NCBI RefSeq assembly: GCF_026914265.1
Contig: NC_069134.1
Location: 15,965,205 to 16,029,204, forward strand
Source of the DNA: Mya arenaria
Taxonomy: Eukaryota; Mollusca; Bivalvia; Myida; Myidae
DNA: 64,000 nt
Direction of reading: 5' to 3'
Shown: piece after piece, positions 4,936 through 60,782 of the stretch
Layout of the letters: each line of letters starts with the position of its first letter
How positions within the stretch are numbered: the first letter of the stretch is position 1
Notes under the pieces: model-generated
Told to the model about the DNA's origin: nothing
The model's database searches: none
Seen by the model: only the letters and a program-made list of their open reading frames with translations
Made by a program: the position numbers and the translations under genes

Positions 4936-7900
4936 GGACTGGGGGTATACCGGAGATAGCCGGTGAAATGGGCCGTGTTTTCACCTTCCAGGTGGCCCCG
5001 CAGTGCCGTTGGTTTTACCTGGAGTTGGCTGGACCGAAAGTCAAAGTCCCCGCTATTCCCCGGACCATGGGGGTCGTGGTTACAATTGACTAGTGCATTA
5101 CACATACATGTACAGTATAAAAATAATATCAGTAAAATCAGAAAATAAAACCTTTTATAAGTAAAATGACTGTTTTAATTTTCTCAATTTTTTGTTCTTA
5201 TCCATTTGTTTTCTTTGATCGATTTGTAGTAAAGTGGCCTGTTATTAAAGGGGCCTGTTTCTTACGGGCATTGAAGCTATGGAGGGTGTCATGATTTTTT
5301 TTCAAGGCACGGACCTATAAACCTATTGTTCGTGGTAAAGGCGAGGTCTTGAAAGGGAAACATCTTTATTCCACCACCTGCTGTAATATAATGACCGGTG
5401 CCACATTTGCAGATTTGATTAATACTGCTTCAATTGTGTTTTCCCGCAATTTAATCGGGATATATTGAGACAGATTTTCATGTGATACAATCAAAACCGT
5501 TTCATTTATATTCAAACTTCATTTATATTTAAACTAAGAACCTATGTTTGCAATTAAAAAGCATTTCTTGACATATTGCATGATAAATTTAGTAAGAAAT
5601 AAACTTTTTAATTTTTATTTTATTTTTCGCCTTGCGCTCGCCTCTGAATTGCCTTAAATTTAAAAAAAAGTATTTTAATTTTTTTTTCGCTCGCTCGCTC
5701 CTACTTTTTTTGGGCAAAATCCGTAGAACAAATGATCAATTTGTTGTGGCCTAAGTGTTCAGATGTTATCTTTAACAAAATAGCTGATGAAAGCCACAAT
5801 GAGCAAGTAAAAATAACCTATTTTTTATACAACAACACTTAATAACTTTAATCATAGACATAACGTATATGCATATAATGATTAAGAGTTTAATAATGTG
5901 CATGAATAAAACTTCACTTTAGGTTTTATCTAGTATTTTAAAAAAACGATTGTACTATGGATAATCGGTTACTTGAGTGGAACCGATTATCAATAGTAAA
6001 ATTGGAACTGATTCACAACACTACCATGTAGTTGCATGAAGTCTGTGTATCAAGTTTTGCACTCTAGAACTAAACAGTTGAGTACAAAACATTGATACTT
6101 AAAACAGACATAAATTCCCTTCTACGCTATGAAACTGCTGTTGTTTACTATTAAAGTACCATACTTTATTGACTATGGCAACAATTGTCCGGTTGATCGT
6201 GTATTTTGCATTACGAGAAACTGAAAGTAAACTGATAATTAAAACCGGAAGCTGGAAAATAACGGTGCGTCCTGCAAAATGACCCTGGCAAAAAAGTTTG
6301 TAAACAAAAATTGGCTATTTTGCGGTTACCTTGACCGGATTTTGGCGGATACGAGGACTTCTTATATCTGAAATATTGCTATCAAAAAATGTATAAAATA
6401 GAAGTAGCTTGAATGAAATGGGAAATTATCTTGCAGGTTTATATTGTAAGTAGAAAGAAACTCAGGAAAAAGGGGAAAACTGAATTCTGTTTTTGGGAAA
6501 AACTGGCGATTTTTGGGGAAAAATGGAGGCTTTTTGGCGAGGGGAAAGGGCCGATATTCGTACCTAAAATTAGCCAAAAAAAATCACTGTTGGACCATGA
6601 AATAAATCGATCAACGAAGTCTATTCATTTTGACAGTTGGACGGAAATATATTCAAAGGTTAATGGGGTTTACATATAGTGCGCGAAAGCGCTAAATTTA
6701 GCCAATGATTGAGCTAGGTGATTACGTCATTTGTATTCACTTTGTACTATGCACACCTCGAAGCATCCCGGAAAGATTCGAGAAAAAACTCAGCCTTTTC
6801 CGTATTTGTTCAATTTTGGAAAACGTACTAGAGCGTGACTACGTACTGTCTTCTTTATACTGGTAGTGTAAACATGCCGCTTATTTTGCGAGCTTGAATA
6901 AAAGTCACTCGCAATTTGCAAATGTCGCTCGCATTTTGCGAGTATGCGAGTCTAAATTCGAACCCTGATATTTGGGACTAAAATTTTAAATGTGTGAGAC
7001 CACAGGTGACAGTTACGTTGACAGGACCAACCCTATTTGCCATGCCTCCAAACCCATTTTTTTTTGTGAATGGAAACCACACTAGTAAAAATGTCGCATA
7101 AAAGCTAGTTTTATTGTGGAAAAATCAGAAAAAAGGGGTTTCCAAGTAGTGCATCTTGGCCTCGGATAAAAATTGACGATGCTGATGTTCAAACTTCTGT
7201 AGCTGCAACAACAACTTCTTGCATAATCATCTGTCAAGTGGTAAAAATATATTTATATAATAACATTATAAGCGCAGAAATTTGGTAAAATTCAGATTTC
7301 CATACTATAAGAGCATTGGTCTTATACATTTTTGACTTTTGAAACATTTGATTGGTGAAAACCATGTTTTGTCATATATTTCTAAACTTAAGATAGAAAA
7401 GGAGCATGTTTTACATAAAATTTAGATGAAAAAGCTTGTTCTCTGTAACATTATACGGCAATGAATTGATTCCTCCCGCTATTTATAGTTCACCTTGTAT
7501 GATAAGGCCAGCCAGCCAACACAGGTGGTCAGTTTATCTCTAGCAGTCAGAGCTGTACCATCCTCACCAATATCATATGTATCAATAATAAATAGTTAGA
7601 ACACATACAGTCGTTCTTCATAACATTACACTTTCAACCTTAAAAATTTCAAAAGCTTGATGCGCTGACATGGGTGAAAGTTTTCCGGTTTATGCCGGAT
7701 TTCCGGTTTTTCCTGATCCAGAGGGGTCATTTTTCCAAATCGTTTAAATCAGTTGAGATTTTCAAAGGGGGGTTAGGGGTATGACCCAACTCCTCCTCCG
7801 AATTTCGATCATATTTGGCAGAGGTCAACAATAAGTCCGATTTCACAACCTCCATTTTTGCGATCAAGCAGGTGCACGCTTGAGCAAGTGCGCGTTTTTA

Positions 7901-19900: not shown

Positions 19901-22900
19901 GTCCCTACCTCTAAGGCGAAAGATAAAGAAAGTGTTTATTCACAAGGGAATTCTGAATATAAGGGCATAACAGTGTAGGTTGTCAAGTATGGGTGGTATT
20001 TTTTTATGTTCAGAGGCAATTTAAAATAACTTGCCATATGTATTTGACACGTAAAGGCAAGATCAACTTTTCATGTACTGACCTTGTTCGTAGGTCAATG
20101 TCACATTCGGGGGCATTCGTCACATACTGTGACAGCTGTTGTTTATTGATTCTAGATCACGTCAGGAGAGTATATCCAGATGAGTGGGCGAGCAGGAAGG
20201 CGTGGCCTGGATGACCGTGGGATCGTTATACTCATGATTGATGAGAAGATGCCCCCTGCTGCTGGCAAGGCTGTTCTCAAGGTTAGATACCTTTGCTGTA
20301 CTCCTATATGAATTATATGTCTACAAATTAGGTGTAAATCTTATATGGTTACTTTGGAAATGTACCTAGCATGTACAATACACTAAAGGGGATTGAAGAA
20401 TGCTATTATCCAGATTATTAAAGATATTGATAAATCAAAAGCAAGTAAAATCCCCATGGCTTAAACTAAGTCAGAATTTAGTGAAAATATTCAGTTTAGT
20501 TTGTCTTGGATCATTATCAATTTTTAGCTCAATACATTTCGTGTCAACATGTTCTCGTATCTTAATAATGATAAAACTATTAGCATGGTAAAACTAGTGC
20601 TCTTGCTGTCAAGCCAATTAAAGAGTGATTGGCTGTGTTCCAGGGTGCAGCAGACTCCCTGAACAGTGCATTCCATCTGACATACAACATGGTGCTGAAC
20701 CTCCTGAGAGTGGAGGAAATCAACCCAGAGTTTATGTTGGAGAGATCCTTCTACCAGTTCCAGAACTACGCCGCAATTCCCGGCCTCATTGATAGTATGT
20801 TATTGATGGCATTGATATGTTTCAGAATGTTGTTGATGACATTGATGTGTTTCAGTATGTTATTGATGGCATTGATGTGTTTCAGCATGTTATTGATGGC
20901 ATTGATGTGTTTCAGCATGTTATTGATGGCATTGATGTGTTTCAGCAGGTTATTGATGGCATTGATGTGTTTCAGCAGGTTATTGATGGCATTGATGTGT
21001 TTCAGTATGTTAATGACGGCATTGATGTGTTTCAGTATGTTATTGATGGCATTGATGTGTTTCAGTATGTTATTGATGGCATTGATGTGTTTCAGTATGT
21101 TATTGATGGCATTGACAGGGGTTGACACTAACCATTTTCCCAAGGGATCCCAAAGGGACACCAACATTTGAAATCAGGTGTCCCTTCCTGAAATTAAGAG
21201 TCCCTTCCATTTTTTACATTTTTTTTTCATTAATGAGCCTGTTTTAATATTAAATTGAACATACAAATCCAGTGCCTTTTACTTTTCAATTTGTAATTCA
21301 AGTATACACCATATTATACATGTTTTCAACAGCATGCAATGACAAGTTAGTTATAGCACTATGTCACCCATGTGAACCTCTGGCAATGGCAAAGAGGAAG
21401 ATTTGGGTCTTAAGTCAGTAGATTGGGTTCAAAAGTGGTAGAATGTCTAAGTCACACAATGGGTACAATGTAAACAAAAACTTGATGTTGTTACTGTTTT
21501 TAGATTTTCGGAAAATACGCATTCAAAATGCCATGGTTCAGGGTCTTGTCAGATGTCATTGCTTTTGATTGAAAAACAGTAGGAATATAACATCTGGCTT
21601 GTGAATCAATCAGACTGCCCAACAAGTGTAGTGCATACTGGAAGAGCAGACAACTGGAAAATAGTGTATGTTTATTTTCGCGCCAAAATGTCATAATTTT
21701 TTTATCAATTGATTGAAGATAAATAATAAAACTTTGGGAATTTTATTTCTATAATGTTTTGATCAAGGCATAAAACAAAGAATGCTGAATAGTAGGATGG
21801 CTTCCCAGTAAACTAGTTCCGTAGGATGCCAGTCTTTTGTGCCGTAAATGTTACTGTAACAACTTGATGGTCGCATCATTAAGGCATCAAAGTCAGCAGT
21901 TTTGGCATCTTTTTGGGCGGTTCTGACACATGAGCAAACTAGTTCACCATAATTATTGTACCGATTATAAGTCTGTCACCTCTGACACCTTAATTATTGT
22001 ACCTATTATTAAAGTCCGTCACCTCTGACCTTGTTGATAACGTAAACAACACAGCGGAAGCGTTAACCCGCATGCGCACTGTGAAATGACCTGTTTATTT
22101 ATAGATTCATGACGTAATTATAGTGAAAAGGTCAGCCATACTTTCGCTTTAGTGCGTGCGACGTATTAATATTAATATCTTGTTTACATGCACTGTCAAG
22201 AAAGTTAGGGGAACCCAAATTTAGGTAATTAATTCATGAAACGCTATTTATTTATTGATATTTAGCTTTTATCGGTCAAAATTTAAGTGTCTCGACGGAA
22301 TACAGGACTTTGAAGTTCAGGTGTTCCTCCCGAAAAATTGGTGTCCTCGGGATCCCGGGACCCCGTTAGTGTCGAACACTGCATTGATGTGTTTCAGTAT
22401 GTTATTGATGGCATTGATGTGTTTCAGTATGTTATTAATGTTCATGAAGAAAATCATAGATGTCACATTGATATTATATTTTAATGTCAACCAATAGTTG
22501 CTGCATAAGAAAGATGACAACATTATTTTTAAAAATAGAAGAAACATTTTACTGAACATAACAATTGTTATATTTGTTAAAAGAACAAAACATGTTCACG
22601 CATGTCACTGGTAATGGCGTTTGATAGATAAGATAACCCATTTGGAGGTTAAGGGTCCATCACATTGCTGAAAGTCTTGATAGCTATACATCATAAGTTT
22701 AGCAAGTATATATGTCAATTTTCGTTCTCAGAGATGAAGAATACTGAGGACCGGTACAACCAGTGTGTGGTGCCAAATGAGGACCAGGTGTCAACATACT
22801 ACAAGATACGACAGCAGCTAAACCACCTTGGACGTGAACTGCTCACATACATTCAAAAACCGCAGTACATCTTGCCGTTCCTGCAGCCGGGCAGGCTCGT

Positions 22901-25900
22901 GCACGTGAAGAACGGGGAGGATGACTTTGGCTGGACCATGGTCGTTAACTTCCAGAAAAAGGCTAACCAGAGCAAGGTTAATATTGATTACTTAAAAGTG
23001 TTTTAGAATTTTGAATGTTCTTTTGTCCGAGAATTTTGGTCATGTATGAAAAGAAACCTTTTGACACTCAAGCAGCAACAGTTTCTGCTAATTTTCCAAA
23101 AACGATATGTATTGGTAATATTCCATAAGAGAATATGCAGTGAAGGTAAGTATGAACCATTTAAATTTATAAAGTAGGACTGTATGCTATTAAAAGGCTT
23201 ACATTAATTTGTCATTATTTTATGATGGAGCAAACTTTCCCTGTACAGAGATTTTGTTCCAACAGACTTCAGATGAGGGCCCAGTATATGTGTGTGAGGT
23301 GCTAGCTAACTTGACAAAGGATTCAGCCAGGAGTCGCAACTCAGCACTAATCAAGCCTCAACAGCCTCCGAGCACACTCGGCGAAATGCAGGTTTGTGAC
23401 TATATCTGTTGAATCCCAATACTAGTTGTTTGTGTTGTTTTCCCTATGTTGTTATCTCAATTCGTGAAGCATTCATTAAACATTAAATTTAGATAGACAA
23501 ACACAAGTTCTTGCATTGGCTCTGTAGGGTATTACAGAGACAAATATTAGGATGTTTTCGTGCCTTGCAGAATGAATGCAACTTGAATGACATAAAATTG
23601 AGGAGTCATTAAGTGTAACAGGTGTGCCTTTCCTTGTTTCAGGTGATTCCAGTGATGTTACACCTGATACATGAGATCAGTGCTGTCCGACTATACCTAC
23701 CTAAAGACCTTCGTCCTCTCGATAACAGACAGAGTGTTGGCAAGTCCATACAGGTAAGTGAGTAGTAATAGTCACTATAGCCGTACTGAAGTTTGGCAGG
23801 TGGGAGCATATAGTTAAAGAATGTAAATCCTTTAACATTCAATAATCTAATGCCTTATTCAATTTTGCAAATGAGAAAATACTCCAAATTTGACTGAAAT
23901 CTAGATACCAAATTTGACTGAAAAATCTAGATACCAAATTTGACTGAAATCTAGATACCAAATTTGACTGAAATCTAGATACCAAATTTGACTGAAATCT
24001 GGATGTTACATGTTGTTACCGTTGTTTTATGTACTATTGTTTTCAGGAGGTTCAGAAAAGGTTTCCTGATGGTCTGCCCCTGTTAGATCCGGTGGAGGAT
24101 ATGGGTATTAAAGAAAAGTCCATGAAAGATGTTGTCAAGGTCAGTCAGTTTTTGAAAATGTACACGTTTCTGTCTGTGCTATGGAGAAAAAGGCCTTAGC
24201 CCCTCTACTTTGTAATCCTGGAAACTGAACTTCTAAATTCTGTGGATTTCAAAAAAATTTAGAGAAGAAGATATATATAATCGCTGAAAATTATTATTTT
24301 TTCTTGTAAAACTGATGTTTGTTCAGTTGCCAGTTTCCCGAAAAGAAACACTTTTTTTCTTGTAAAACTGACGTTTGTTCATTTGCCAGTTCCCGAAAAG
24401 AAACACTTTTTTTCTTGTAAAACTGATGTTTGTTCATTTGCCAGTTTCCCGAAAAGAAACACTTTTTTTCTTGTAAAACTGACGTTTGTTCATTTGCCAG
24501 TTCCCGAAAAGAAACACTTTTTTTCTTGTAAGACTGATGTTTGTTCAGTTGCCAATTTCCCGAAAAGAAACACTTTTTTTCTTGTAAAACTGATGTTTGT
24601 TCAGTTGCCAGTTTCCCGAAAAGAAACACTTTTTTTCTTGTAAAACTGACGTTTGTTCATTTGCCAGTTCCCGAAAAGAAACACTTTTTTTCTTGTAAAA
24701 CTGATGTTTGTTCATTTGCCAGTTTCCCGAAAAGAAACACTTTTTTTCTTGTAAAACTGATGTTTGTTCAGTTGCCAGTTTCCCGAAAAGAAACACTTTT
24801 TTTCTTGTAAAACTGACGTTTGTTCATTTGCCAGTTCCCGAAAAGAAACACTTTTTTTCTTGTAAAACTGATGTTTGTTCATTTGCCAGTTTCCCGAAAA
24901 GAAACACTTTTTTTCTTGTAAAACTGATGTTTGTTCATTTGCCAGTTCCCGAAAAGAAACACTTTTTTTCTTGTAAAACTGATGTTTGTTCAGTTGCCAG
25001 TTTCCCGAAAAGAAACACTTTTTTTCTTGTAAAACTGACGTTTGTTCATTTGCCAGTTCCCAAAAAGAAACACTTTTTTTCTTGTAAGACTGATGTTTGT
25101 TCAGTTGCCAATTTCCAATAAGAACCCATAGACAATACTTAAGCAAAATATAGATCCGTACGGTTTGTGAGCTTTAATTTGCTTTACAGCCATTATGAAT
25201 ACATGATTTCATTTAGATATTATCAAATGATGAATGTTATAAATACATGTACCAGCTTACTGAAATAGTAATATCAACACATTTAAGCTCTGATTACCTA
25301 TCAAATTGTATTTCTTATTTCAGAAAATCGAGGCATTTGAACACAGACTCTTTTCACATCCATTATCCAAAGATCCTAACTTGGAAGAGTGGTTTGACTT
25401 GTATGATAAGAAAGTAAAGGTAAGATCATTTATCTTCAGACGTATTTGCCCCAAAAAGGGCCTTTCATGTGTTACTTGCCATTGTTTTTTTTAACCACGT
25501 TTTCACAGAGTGAAATCTGGTTATAAGAATGATGAATGTCGTTGTTCATGCGGGCTGGGCGGCCGGGCTGCGTCAAACTCACCTATGAAACTGAATAACT
25601 TTAGTTAGGGTTGACATATCTTGACCAAACTTGGTCTATAGGAAGAGTTTATGGATACTTTCATGGGATTGCGTTTGGGGTCCCTAGGGTCAAGGTCAAG
25701 GTCACTGTTACTAAAAATAGAAAAACAGTTGAAACTGAATAACTTTAGTCAGGGTCCACATATCTTGACCAAACCAGGTATAAAGGAAGAGTTTATGGAT
25801 GCTTTTCATGGGATTGAGTTTGGGGTCCCTAGATTCAAGGTCAAGGTCACTGTTACTAAAAATAGAAAAATGGTTAAAACTGAATAACTTAAGATAGGGT

Positions 25901-56357: not shown

Positions 56358-59300
56358 GATTTATACTTGCCTGATGAAATATACATTAGGATATTATCTC
56401 CTTTAAACATCAACAATCCGCTATATACAGCGATCACGTGACTTACCATGGTCACGTGATTAAAGTGCTCTATATAACCACCTGTAAACCCCATATCGTC
56501 AGTTTTATTTCCGGCGTCGAAACATCAACCATGTTTTACTTTTCTTATAATTTAATGACAATTTAGTTGTGTTTAACAACTATTTTATACTTTTTGGATT
56601 ATAAATTGGATTTTTATGGTTTATTATGGCCAACGCTTCATTAGGCAACGACAGTGTTGAGAAAGACAGCTTGTCTTTAGACGGAATGGAGGAGATCGAG
56701 TTTTACACTGAATCGCGTCGGTCACATGTTTCTCAGAAGAAATCTTCTCGTACCCCGCGAGCAAGCAAGAAAGAGCTAGATTCTTTGAGGTAAGATGTTA
56801 AGTCACGTTTCGAGAGCATTGACTCGAAACTGGACAGATTCTTCAATATGATGGATACTGCTGGCTCGGCCAGGCAGAGACCAGTAACCAGTGCTACTAC
56901 TTGCACAGTAACTGATAGCACAAACCCAAAGAGGGTTGAGGGTGCGTATTTTCCTCTCACCAATACCGGAAACTGTGATCACCCATGATGTGGATGATGA
57001 CACTTTATCGTTGATGCCTGGTCAAAGAGAACGTGCGGAGTCGTAGTCGAGGATGCCGCACCGGAGAACAACAGTTGCAAGTCACACACAGTTCTAATTG
57101 ACTTTGATAGTGATGATAGTGATGCTCGTTTTTTAAAGTATAGTTCGAAAACTTGAATGTTTTGCAAGAATTATTTGGCGTAGATGCCACAACAAAGTCT
57201 GACAAAACAACAATGGTATTTTTCTAGATGACAGTCAAATATCCGTTTTAAATGAGTCCTGGAGAACAAAGAAACTAACAAAATTGTCAGCTTACAAAGA
57301 CAGTTACAGGTCAGCTTTTCCTATATAAGACAAAGCAGATGATATATTAGCAGTACCAAGTATTGACAGCATTGTTTACTCATCAAGCATCAAATTTACT
57401 ATTGAAGAAATATGGACAGAAATTTGCCGTAAAATCACAATATCTGTGACCAATGAAAGACTTGGAGAAAACTGCATATCAGGGTCAACATGCAGCCAGA
57501 ATGGGTATTGTCATCAATGTATACATGCAACAATCATTGGGTAACTTGTTGTCTAAACTTACAGACAAACATTGCAACATTGATAGTGCTGTGCAATGTG
57601 TGCGGGACAAGTTTGCCATGAATACTAAATCCCTCGACCAGGTTGCTAGGTCAGGGGCTTAACATCATTTAGTGCGGAGGAAAGCAGCTATGGCTGACTC
57701 GGGTCTGAACGATTCCAAAGAATTAAAAAATCATATTTGGAGTTTACCCTTGTCACAGTCAGGAGTCTTTGGTGTAGGACTGGAACACAAACTGAAAGAG
57801 AGACAGGGAATCAATAAACATATTTCAGATCTGCTGCCCGATTTTGACAAGCGGAACAAACGGAAAATGCCAGGTGCTTCAGACCAACACTGGAAAAGAC
57901 CTCCTTTCAGTGATGTGGAACGGCCTCAGCCATTGTATCGTAGTCAGACTCTATCATATGGCTTACATCCTGCGAGAACCGGCTACAAAGCACAATCGCA
58001 GACAAGATTTCCGAAGGCCACAGCTACAAAAACCTCTGGGGTAGGTAGCACTTTTCGTAAATCAAAATGACTTACTATTGATAAAACTAGAGATACCAGT
58101 AGGGGGCAGGATTTTTTGCAAATCAATGGGAAACAATCACAAACGATCAATGGGTGTTTTCATAAAAGAAGGTAAACAAATAGAATTCGAAGCCATCCCA
58201 AAATTCAACGGCATAAAACAAACAAATCTTCCAGTAAAAAAATGCCTATTCTATTACAGGAAATATGTATTTTGTTACAAAAACAAGCAAAAGAAACAGT
58301 AAATCAGAACATTGATCAAGGTTTTTACAGTACATTTTTTCTAGTCCCAAAAAATCAGGAGGTATGAGACCTGTTATTAATCTGAAGCCTCTCAATGTTT
58401 TTCTGCGCACTCAACACTTCAAAATGGATACAATCAAAACAGTGTTTAATCAAAAAAGGAGATTTTGCATTTTCCCTAGATCTTGCAGATGCATATCTAC
58501 ACATTCCAATCTTTCCAAGTCACAGAAAGTTTCTAAGGTTTTGTGTAAACAACCAAGATTACCAATGGCGAGTCATGGCATTTGGTCCAAAAGTAGCACC
58601 TCGGACATTTACAAAATGAGTTGCAGTAGTAGCAGCTCATGTCCGCAAACAATCTCTTCGTCTAGCTGTTTACCTCGACGATTGGTTAGGTCTAAATGCA
58701 AGCAGACAAAATCTTGTACAAGATCAAAGGACATTGCTCATTCTCCTTACCAATCTAGATTTCATAATAAACAAGAAAAAGTCTCAATTAGTCAAAAGAT
58801 CACTTACATAGGAAGTGTACTAGATCTTCAAAAAGGGTTAGTTTTTCCGACATCAGACAGAATCAAAAAGATTTTTCTAGCAGTCGAGATGATATTAGGA
58901 CAATCAAAGTCAACAGCCCAACATTATCTACATTTATTGGGCCTACTAGCATCGTGCATAGAACTGATTCCCCATACAAGACTCCGAATGAGACCAATTC
59001 AGCTGTATCTGTTACATTTTTGAAAACCCAGTTCGAAAAAAATAAGTTTTCAGATCCCTTTAAAAGCCCATCTAGTAGAACATCTGAAATGGTGGTTACA
59101 TACTCCAAATATTATACAGGGCAAATCTTTTTAACAAGTATAACAATACAGACAGATGCAAGGCAAGAAGCATGGGGGCATGCCTAGACACTCGGATAGC
59201 ACAGGAAAAGTGGTCAGTGCAGGAGAAGAAAATGCATATCAATTCTTTAGAGATTGAAGCAGTATACAATGCCTTAGTTCATTTTTTACCATTACTGACA

Positions 59301-60782
59301 AATCAGACAGTTTTGATTCGTTCAGACAACACAACAGTGGTACAATACCTGAACAAGCAGGGTGTTACCCGGTCCCCATTTCTCTGTCTACAAACATGGA
59401 AAATCTTGTCATTAGCAATTCAACACAATATATTCCTGAAAGCAGCACATATTGCGGGCAAGCTCAATATATTGCCAGACCAATTATCAAAGACAATGAT
59501 ACGTCCAACAGAATGGACACTGAACAGGTCAATCACTTACCAGATATTTTGGAAATGGGGTCAACCATTGATAGATCTATTCGCCTCTTATTTGAACAAA
59601 CAAGTACCAATATTTTGTTCCTGGATTCCACATGAAGATGCTTTAGCACTGGATGCATTGACAATTCCCTGGGAGGGGATGTTTGCATATGCTTTTCCAC
59701 CATTGTGTCTGATTCCAAGGGTAATTCAGTATATGAAAATGTTTCAATGCAGAATCATTCTGATAGCTCTCAAATGGCCGAGACGACCTTGGTACCCAGA
59801 ACTATAACATCTATCGGTTGCAGCCCCATTGCTAATTCTAAAAGAGGTACTCAATGAAAGACCACCACAGACAAAATTATTACCTGAATGGGATTTACCT
59901 TTAGGTTTGTCTATGCTCCAAAAGTACCCATTTGAACCTTTGTCAAAAACAAATTTGAAGTTCACAACTTACAAAACTGTTTTTCTTACAGCCATCACCA
60001 CGTTTCGGAGGACAGGGGACCTCCAGGCGTTAAGGTTAGATGAAGGAGCAGTTTTAGTCCAGGCGAAAGGAGTGACATTCCTTAGACATGGTTTAAGTAA
60101 ACAAGACAGGCCTAATCATATCTCAGGAAAGATGTTTGTGCCTGCATTTAAGAAAAACAAACTCTTGGACCCAAAACGAGCTTTGTATTGGTATCTGAAA
60201 AAGACTGATCAATATAGAAATGATATCGGAAAATCTGAAAATAGCCTTTTTATAGGAATAAACAAACCACATCGGAAAGTGTCAAAGCAGACTATTAGTA
60301 AATGGATTGTTAAAGTCATACAGATGGCCTATGATGACAAATCTAAGAAAGTGAAAGCACACTCGACAACTGGCATTGGGACCTTCTTGGGCCGTTTACA
60401 AAGGGGCATCTATGCTCTCTGTGTAAGAAGCTGGAGATTGGTCAAGAGAGACTACATTTGTTAGGTTTTACCTGAGGAATATTAAACCTTCAGTTTTAAC
60501 ATAATCATTTTTTACAATGTGTATAAGACTTTTTGATTATTGAAAGTTTTAATTCCCGACGGATTCCATATATAGTCATTCAAGTAGAATGATTTTGAAT
60601 GTAATATAAAGACTAAAATAATTAAGTCTTAAAGACATAACAACATTTATACAGAATGTATGAGGAAGAAGAAAGTACTTCTTTTGTACAGTATTGAAGA
60701 CCACAGAAAATACATCCTAAACCATAAGGTAATACTGCTTGGTAATCATCCTTATGTATATTTCATCAGGCAAGTATAAATC
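56358..60782 (+). mobile_element. DIRS-like tyrosine-recombinase retroelement, broken fossil
   Basis: Inverted terminal repeats of about 37 bp, GATTTATACTTGCCTGATGA and onward, lie at 56358 and, reversed, at 60782. Between them in order are a gag-like region (about 56625-58070), a reverse transcriptase (from about 58360; MRPVINLKPLN), an RNase H (about 59150-59520; HINSLEIEAVYNAL, RSDNTTVVQYLNKQG) and a tyrosine recombinase (about 59830-60465; RRTGDLQALRLDEG, KRALYWYLKKTDQYR). Inverted ends with a tyrosine recombinase in place of an integrase define DIRS elements. It keeps all parts but has several breaks. Long surviving frames suggest moderate age. Confidence 0.85.

Follow-up and report, generated by a model that had tools for sequence, protein, structure and literature searches.

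A probable mirage-type minisatellite at the exon 13 donor of MTR4 in the clam Mya arenaria

In the clam Mya arenaria, a 30-bp minisatellite is anchored at the donor of intron 13 of MTR4. From its anatomy and from comparison with arrays described in amphioxus, we consider it probable that the array is a minisatellite of the mirage type, anchored at the exon edge and close to neutral. The class of structure is already known, and the MTR4 array is an added case of it; the array is perhaps also a weak decoy ladder of splice sites. Among three further genes inspected, donor-anchored arrays are present in two (SKI2 and a TIR-domain gene) and none was seen in the part of PRPF8 covered.

The window (the whole stretch of DNA that was analyzed, 64,000 nucleotides long) lies on contig C13 of the searched assembly, which comprises 18 contigs and 1.216 Gb. 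The MTR4 exons were mapped with the human MTR4 sequence as a guide (Table 1; here and below a slash within a motif marks a splice boundary). The MTR4 product spliced at 20795 aligns without gaps to human MTR4 (6ro1_A) over 129 residues (E = 3.8e-60). Intron 13 splits the codon A/AG, and the junction of exons 13 and 14 falls at residue 127 of the 566-residue query, within PF21408, the stalk domain of MTR4, which covers residues 105-167. Processed copies of MTR4, which would record mature splicing, are absent from the 16 genome matches: 12 are MTR4 itself and 4 are its paralogue SKI2 on C17, the sole other gene matched. Elsewhere in the window, at 56605-60461, long overlapping frames follow one another in a run and have a retroelement-like appearance.

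Table 1. Coordinates of the features discussed (positions are those of the window unless a locus is named)
Feature	Position	Strand	Basis or remark
MTR4 exon 13	20644..20794	+	Junction search and homology; ends ATT GAT A/, phase 1
Authentic donor of intron 13, GTATGT	20795..20800	+	Donor scoring and gap-free spliced product
30-bp array, units 1-10 and first part of unit 11	20795..21115	+	
First in-frame decoy donor, GTATGT (+60 nt)	20855..20860	+	Others at 21005, 21035, 21065, 21095
Best-scoring decoy donor, CAG/GTTATT	20949..20954, also 20979	+	Donor scoring
Target-site duplication CATTGA, left copy	21110..21115	+	
DNA-transposon-like element, 1,266 bp	21116..22381	+	Genome matches and target duplication
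Target-site duplication CATTGA, right copy	22382..22387	+	
Remaining array: end of unit 11, unit 12, partial unit 13	22382..22440	+	
MTR4 exon 14	22732..22976	+	Junction search
SKI2 23-bp array at donor	6578-6795 of joined L080+L079+L081	reverse	
TIR gene 33-bp array	L050 8092-9075		Starts at donor ACAGA/GTAAGT
TIR gene 53-bp array	L050 4386-4652		Last copy is the TIR exon acceptor TTTATCAG/GCCGAGGG
33-bp array related to the MTR4 unit	L046 4257-4854, C16		Same orientation as the MTR4 unit, E = 5.3e-8

The unit of the MTR4 array is 30 bp long (GTATGTTATTGATGGCATTGATGTGTTTCA). TRF reports an array at 20794-21115 with 10.7 copies and 94% matches, and 2 further copies at 22381-22440; the total is about 12.5 units, split by a transposon-like element. 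An earlier reading of the window from its letters only (hereafter the sequence-only reading) had the array start exactly at the exon 13 donor, and it does: the array edge lies at 20794/20795 and exon 13 ends at 20794. The same reading counted at least six copies of a junction in which TTTCAG is followed by GTATGT. This junction, TTTCAGTATGT, has seven occurrences in the whole window, every one inside the array (GT at 20855, 21005, 21035, 21065, 21095, 22397, and 22427); the two motifs share one G, however, and therefore the acceptor and donor registers overlap by 1 base. That splice sites recur every 30 bp is true only in part, since GTATGT is kept in units 1, 3, and 8-13, whereas the GT of this register is lost in units 2 and 4-7 (the base after the unit's first G is A in unit 2 and C in units 4-7). 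By straight identity, the exonic sequence in the MTR4 unit amounts to 1 base at the junction; CATTGAT, on reading the two sequences, is common to exon and unit if a 7-base gap is allowed and not otherwise. Units 4-5, 6-7, and 9-12 form identical runs in this one assembly, which fits recent unit turnover.

The element that interrupts unit 11 ends in CAG...CTG and has at least 42 genome matches at at least 40 places, this one included (40 of 931 candidates scored); its best other copy among the matches listed is 97% identical. Target duplications of 5-7 bp flank 18 of the 20 element copies read (5 bp in 12 copies, 6 bp in 4, and 7 bp in 2), and by this test the remaining 2 have none. Because the CATTGA duplication lies inside a repeat unit, the array predates the insertion.

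Donors were scored with a matrix built from 27 donors of three genes, with no array donors among them, and U1 pairing energies were also computed. The authentic donor ATA/GTATGT has a matrix score of 2.1; its U1 pairing energy, -2.8 kcal/mol, is the weakest among the 19 scored donors of MTR4. The next-weakest pairs at -4.1 kcal/mol, and three less certain upstream MTR4 donors pair at -4.4 or better. The in-register copies, TCA/GTATGT, have a poorer exon side than the authentic donor (matrix, -0.5; U1, -2.9), and the exon-adjacent copy is the best in its own register (2.1 versus -0.5). CAG/GTTATT, found in units 6 and 7, reaches 6.7 and -5.6 against 2.1 and -2.8 for the authentic donor. The candidate donors picked out by the sequence-only reading (20855, 21005, 21035, 21065, and 21095) are all present, but the better-scoring sites at 20949 and 20979 had been missed. 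On the acceptor side, TTTCAG sites in ten units score 5.8-8.8, within the range of 4.8-13.8 of the 19 real acceptors from which the acceptor matrix was built.

Upstream of the inserted element, the in-frame extensions that the array could offer are +60, +210, +240, +270, and +300 nt and no others, and in the model they would add 20, 70, 80, 90, and 100 residues from donors 20855, 21005, 21035, 21065, and 21095, respectively. A step of 10 residues per unit had been proposed; as the GT of unit 2 is lost, the +30-nt form is impossible, and there is therefore no +10-residue form. The expectation that later donors keep phase 1 and join exon 14 is borne out for the five donors from 20855 to 21095 but not for the two distal copies, whose use would bring in stops (24 in the model). 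Donors 20949 and 20979 are modelled to add 154 and 184 nt, shift the frame, and run into a stop after joining exon 14, and stops are present in all modelled cassette exons (33/33). The shortest possible insert would be 20 hydrophobic residues (mean Kyte-Doolittle value, 2.16) within the stalk domain. The frame was correctly described as open through the array, as far as the inserted element; this is weak coding evidence, because a 30-bp period needs little beyond one stop-free unit. Across 12 units, departures from the consensus comprise 5 synonymous and 7 non-synonymous changes and 0 stops; with shared unit changes counted once, there are 2 synonymous and 6 non-synonymous changes, and 12 of the 90 possible changes are synonymous. 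These counts give no sign of coding constraint.

As a paralogue control, SKI2 was included before anything was known of its repeats. The intron that spans 6579-7099 in the joined locus opens with a 23-bp repeat unit (GAG/GTAACACTCAACAGCTTGTATTG); the array, whose first donor is GAG/GTAACA, holds nine GTAAC or GTATC donors, the authentic one counted. The spliced SKI2 product is gap-free against human SKI2W across the array donor, and within its own register no copy outscores the first on the matrix (6.4 for the first versus at most 5.0). A partial duplicate of a SKI2 exon, seen by eye, also lies inside the preceding intron (L079, about 960-1050 versus 790-850). The TIR gene, on C16 (TIR_2 domain, E = 2e-16), was reached through its array similar to the MTR4 unit and has one array that starts at a donor and another that ends at an acceptor (Table 1). 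At its donor the first copy, with a score of 3.7, is surpassed by later AAA/GTAAGT copies, which score 7.0. Domain searches with the peptide of its exons E5-E6 and with a joined SAM-like peptide returned nothing above the cut-off. A C1 last exon resembling that of the C16 TIR gene has five strong matches on C1 (query included), one on C16, and four weak matches on C10 (E from 3e-4 to 0.24). In the 11 kb of PRPF8 covered, two arrays (one A-rich, the other of 156 bp) are unanchored and lie about 86 and about 380 bases from the nearest donor seen.

Within MTR4, one of nine arrays is anchored, and the other eight keep a distance of 86 bases or more from any donor and of 42 or more from any acceptor. 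Under random placement, 0.25 donor-anchored arrays would be expected among 17 arrays, and 3 were observed; with the starting case omitted, the chance of at least two anchored arrays is 0.022, a value that refers to few arrays and to a placement model whose overhang of up to 6 bases was fixed with the cases already in view. For this count, the large TIR intron was treated as a single intron. The count leaves out two repeats within the inserted element, small MTR4-intron arrays before 10303, TIR arrays upstream of the first mapped exon, TIR repeats with 14- and 4-bp periods, and the two PRPF8 arrays, both unanchored; the acceptor-anchored TIR array was omitted because the start of its intron is not known. 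There is thus an excess of donor-anchored arrays over random placement, which is suggestive and not proof. A genome-wide count of AGGTRAGT arrays against a mirrored control gave 3392 versus 2195 matches, a 1.5-fold excess in which the listed matches overlap heavily within single arrays, and we do not take it as proof.

A further 33-bp array on C16 is related to the MTR4 unit itself: its unit, TATTATTGATGGCATGCATTGATGTGCCTTTAG, aligns to that of MTR4 with gaps and zero mismatches. No third array resembling the MTR4 unit appears among the matches listed in the genome searches, and single matches to the unit with 1-2 mismatches exist elsewhere in the genome. A candidate exon end, GAAGTTGAT/GTGCC, contains the start of the C16 array. 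We did not accept this exon (C16 exon A) as a true exon, as its start phase is 1 versus phase 2 at the end of the upstream exon, and it stays a candidate; its peptide has no match in Pfam or PDB. Because of the phase misfit and the weak exon homology, the array was left out as a case. Kin of the candidate exon on C1 (E = 3.2) run unbroken, with no intron there, and this would fit intron gain or loss if the candidate C16 exon is real. Common ancestry of intron tails beyond the C13 and C16 arrays was rejected for want of a signal, with 24% of 300 shuffles reaching the observed score. At L046 256-2742 there is also a 54-bp array of about 45 copies, with a 685-codon open frame through most of it. 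The combined proposal that splice-site-anchored minisatellites are general in this genome and that a donor-bearing unit moved between unlinked exon edges strikes us as quite unlikely.

Several known systems invite comparison. The mirage minisatellites of amphioxus, in Adh3 and in the globin genes BflGb6 and BflGb9, are tandem repeats of an exon-intron boundary at its donor or acceptor end; the unit in Adh3 is 10-72 bp long, and many units carry splice signals (PMC3087553). In that source, regular splicing is reported to be undisturbed by mirages, and such arrays are proposed as a path to intron gain (PMC3087553). The MTR4 array likewise abuts an exon-intron boundary and has a splice signal in many units. 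Unlike the amphioxus mirages, it belongs to another phylum and is split by an insertion, and the exonic part of the clam unit is 1 base in MTR4 and in SKI2 and 4 bases, by reading, in the donor array of the TIR gene. The human minisatellite of 6-16/IFI6 reportedly lies at an exon end and has several donors that add whole codons, several of them being used. The MTR4 minisatellite is similar in offering several candidate donors; it differs in that its nearest in-frame insert would be 20 hydrophobic residues in a conserved helicase. In the Rogers model, as described for potato RdRp (PMC4974935), duplication across a splice boundary yields a new intron. Extra splice signals would arise from such a duplication in MTR4 as well, whereas here the copies sit in the 5′ part of an intron that already exists. 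Recursive splice sites require AG/GT. Acceptor-like and donor-like motifs adjoin in the MTR4 array as they do there, but AG/GT with a rebuilt donor was not found at the repeated junction, where the G is shared in TTTCAGTATGT at 7/7 sites; no donor is therefore rebuilt, except possibly at the CAG/GTTATT of units 6 and 7. In abalone, an intron with a 27-bp minisatellite has been described. The phrase "mirage minisatellites" had no match among openly licensed PMC papers, and we do not claim that mollusc arrays are unreported.

For the MTR4 array, we propose that slippage or unequal exchange may have amplified a short duplication, one of whose breakpoints lay at the exon edge, and that, with such anchoring, each new copy would bring a splice signal into the intron. 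The exon-adjacent copy would be used owing to its own exon sequence beside it; deeper copies would be ignored, or rare transcripts from them removed, and the MTR4 protein would be left unchanged. We infer this harmlessness from the amphioxus precedent and from the unfavorable products of the array donors.

The array could instead act as a decoy ladder that cuts MTR4 output, with U1 held on array copies or with 20949 or 20979 used and leading to stops, such that more copies would mean less full-length mRNA. The authentic donor is the weakest of 19 by U1 pairing, the register copies pair equally and CAG/GTTATT better, ten array acceptors score in the real range, and both frameshifting donors and every modelled cassette exon lead to stops. 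This half of the earlier interpretation fits the sequence in that the authentic donor is weak, but regular splicing is reported to be unaffected by the amphioxus mirages (PMC3087553), and we think a loss of output unlikely. The other half, in which copy number would tune in-frame MTR4 isoforms with hydrophobic inserts, found no support and appears very improbable to us. Five GTATGT donors do keep phase 1 in an open frame, and the 6-16/IFI6 minisatellite would be a human precedent; yet a +10 form is missing, the minimum insert places 20 residues of hydropathy 2.16 within the stalk domain, the register donors score below the real donor, the best array donors and the cassette exons lead to stops, and the unit differences show no sign of coding constraint.

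It is highly improbable, in our view, that intron 13 itself owes its origin or its spread to a repeat carrying splice sites, as in gain by tandem duplication. Mirage arrays have been proposed as a gain route (PMC3087553), and the related C16 array lies beside a candidate exon end whose C1 relatives are unbroken there. However, that exon is only a candidate, the donor-register units read AGTATGT and not AG/GT, with AGGT in units 6 and 7 only, and MTR4 intron 13 is probably old because SKI2 is interrupted by an intron at much the same point (following ...LDK in phase 0, versus ...ID-K in phase 1, about 4 residues apart with gaps uncounted, both read by eye). Tandem repeats are easily mis-sized in assembly. 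An assembly artefact is nevertheless extremely improbable, as the units differ among themselves and contain an insertion with a matching target duplication; the presence of the array therefore looks solid, and its copy number alone is uncertain.

For MTR4 itself, the probable mirage-type array likely has no consequence, save that a weak donor stands beside many decoys in a conserved gene. Gene predictors may set the exon end at any copy of such repeated signals. What makes the case of most interest is a hint that anchored arrays of this class are common in this genome. If they are general here and a donor-bearing unit has moved, such arrays would amount to a running natural experiment on a spliceosome that ignores tens of near-identical donors. 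Should the pattern hold across the genome, mirage minisatellites would not be a lancelet oddity, and every array would offer a natural test of how one splice site is picked from evenly spaced, near-identical donors whose number may differ from one individual to another.
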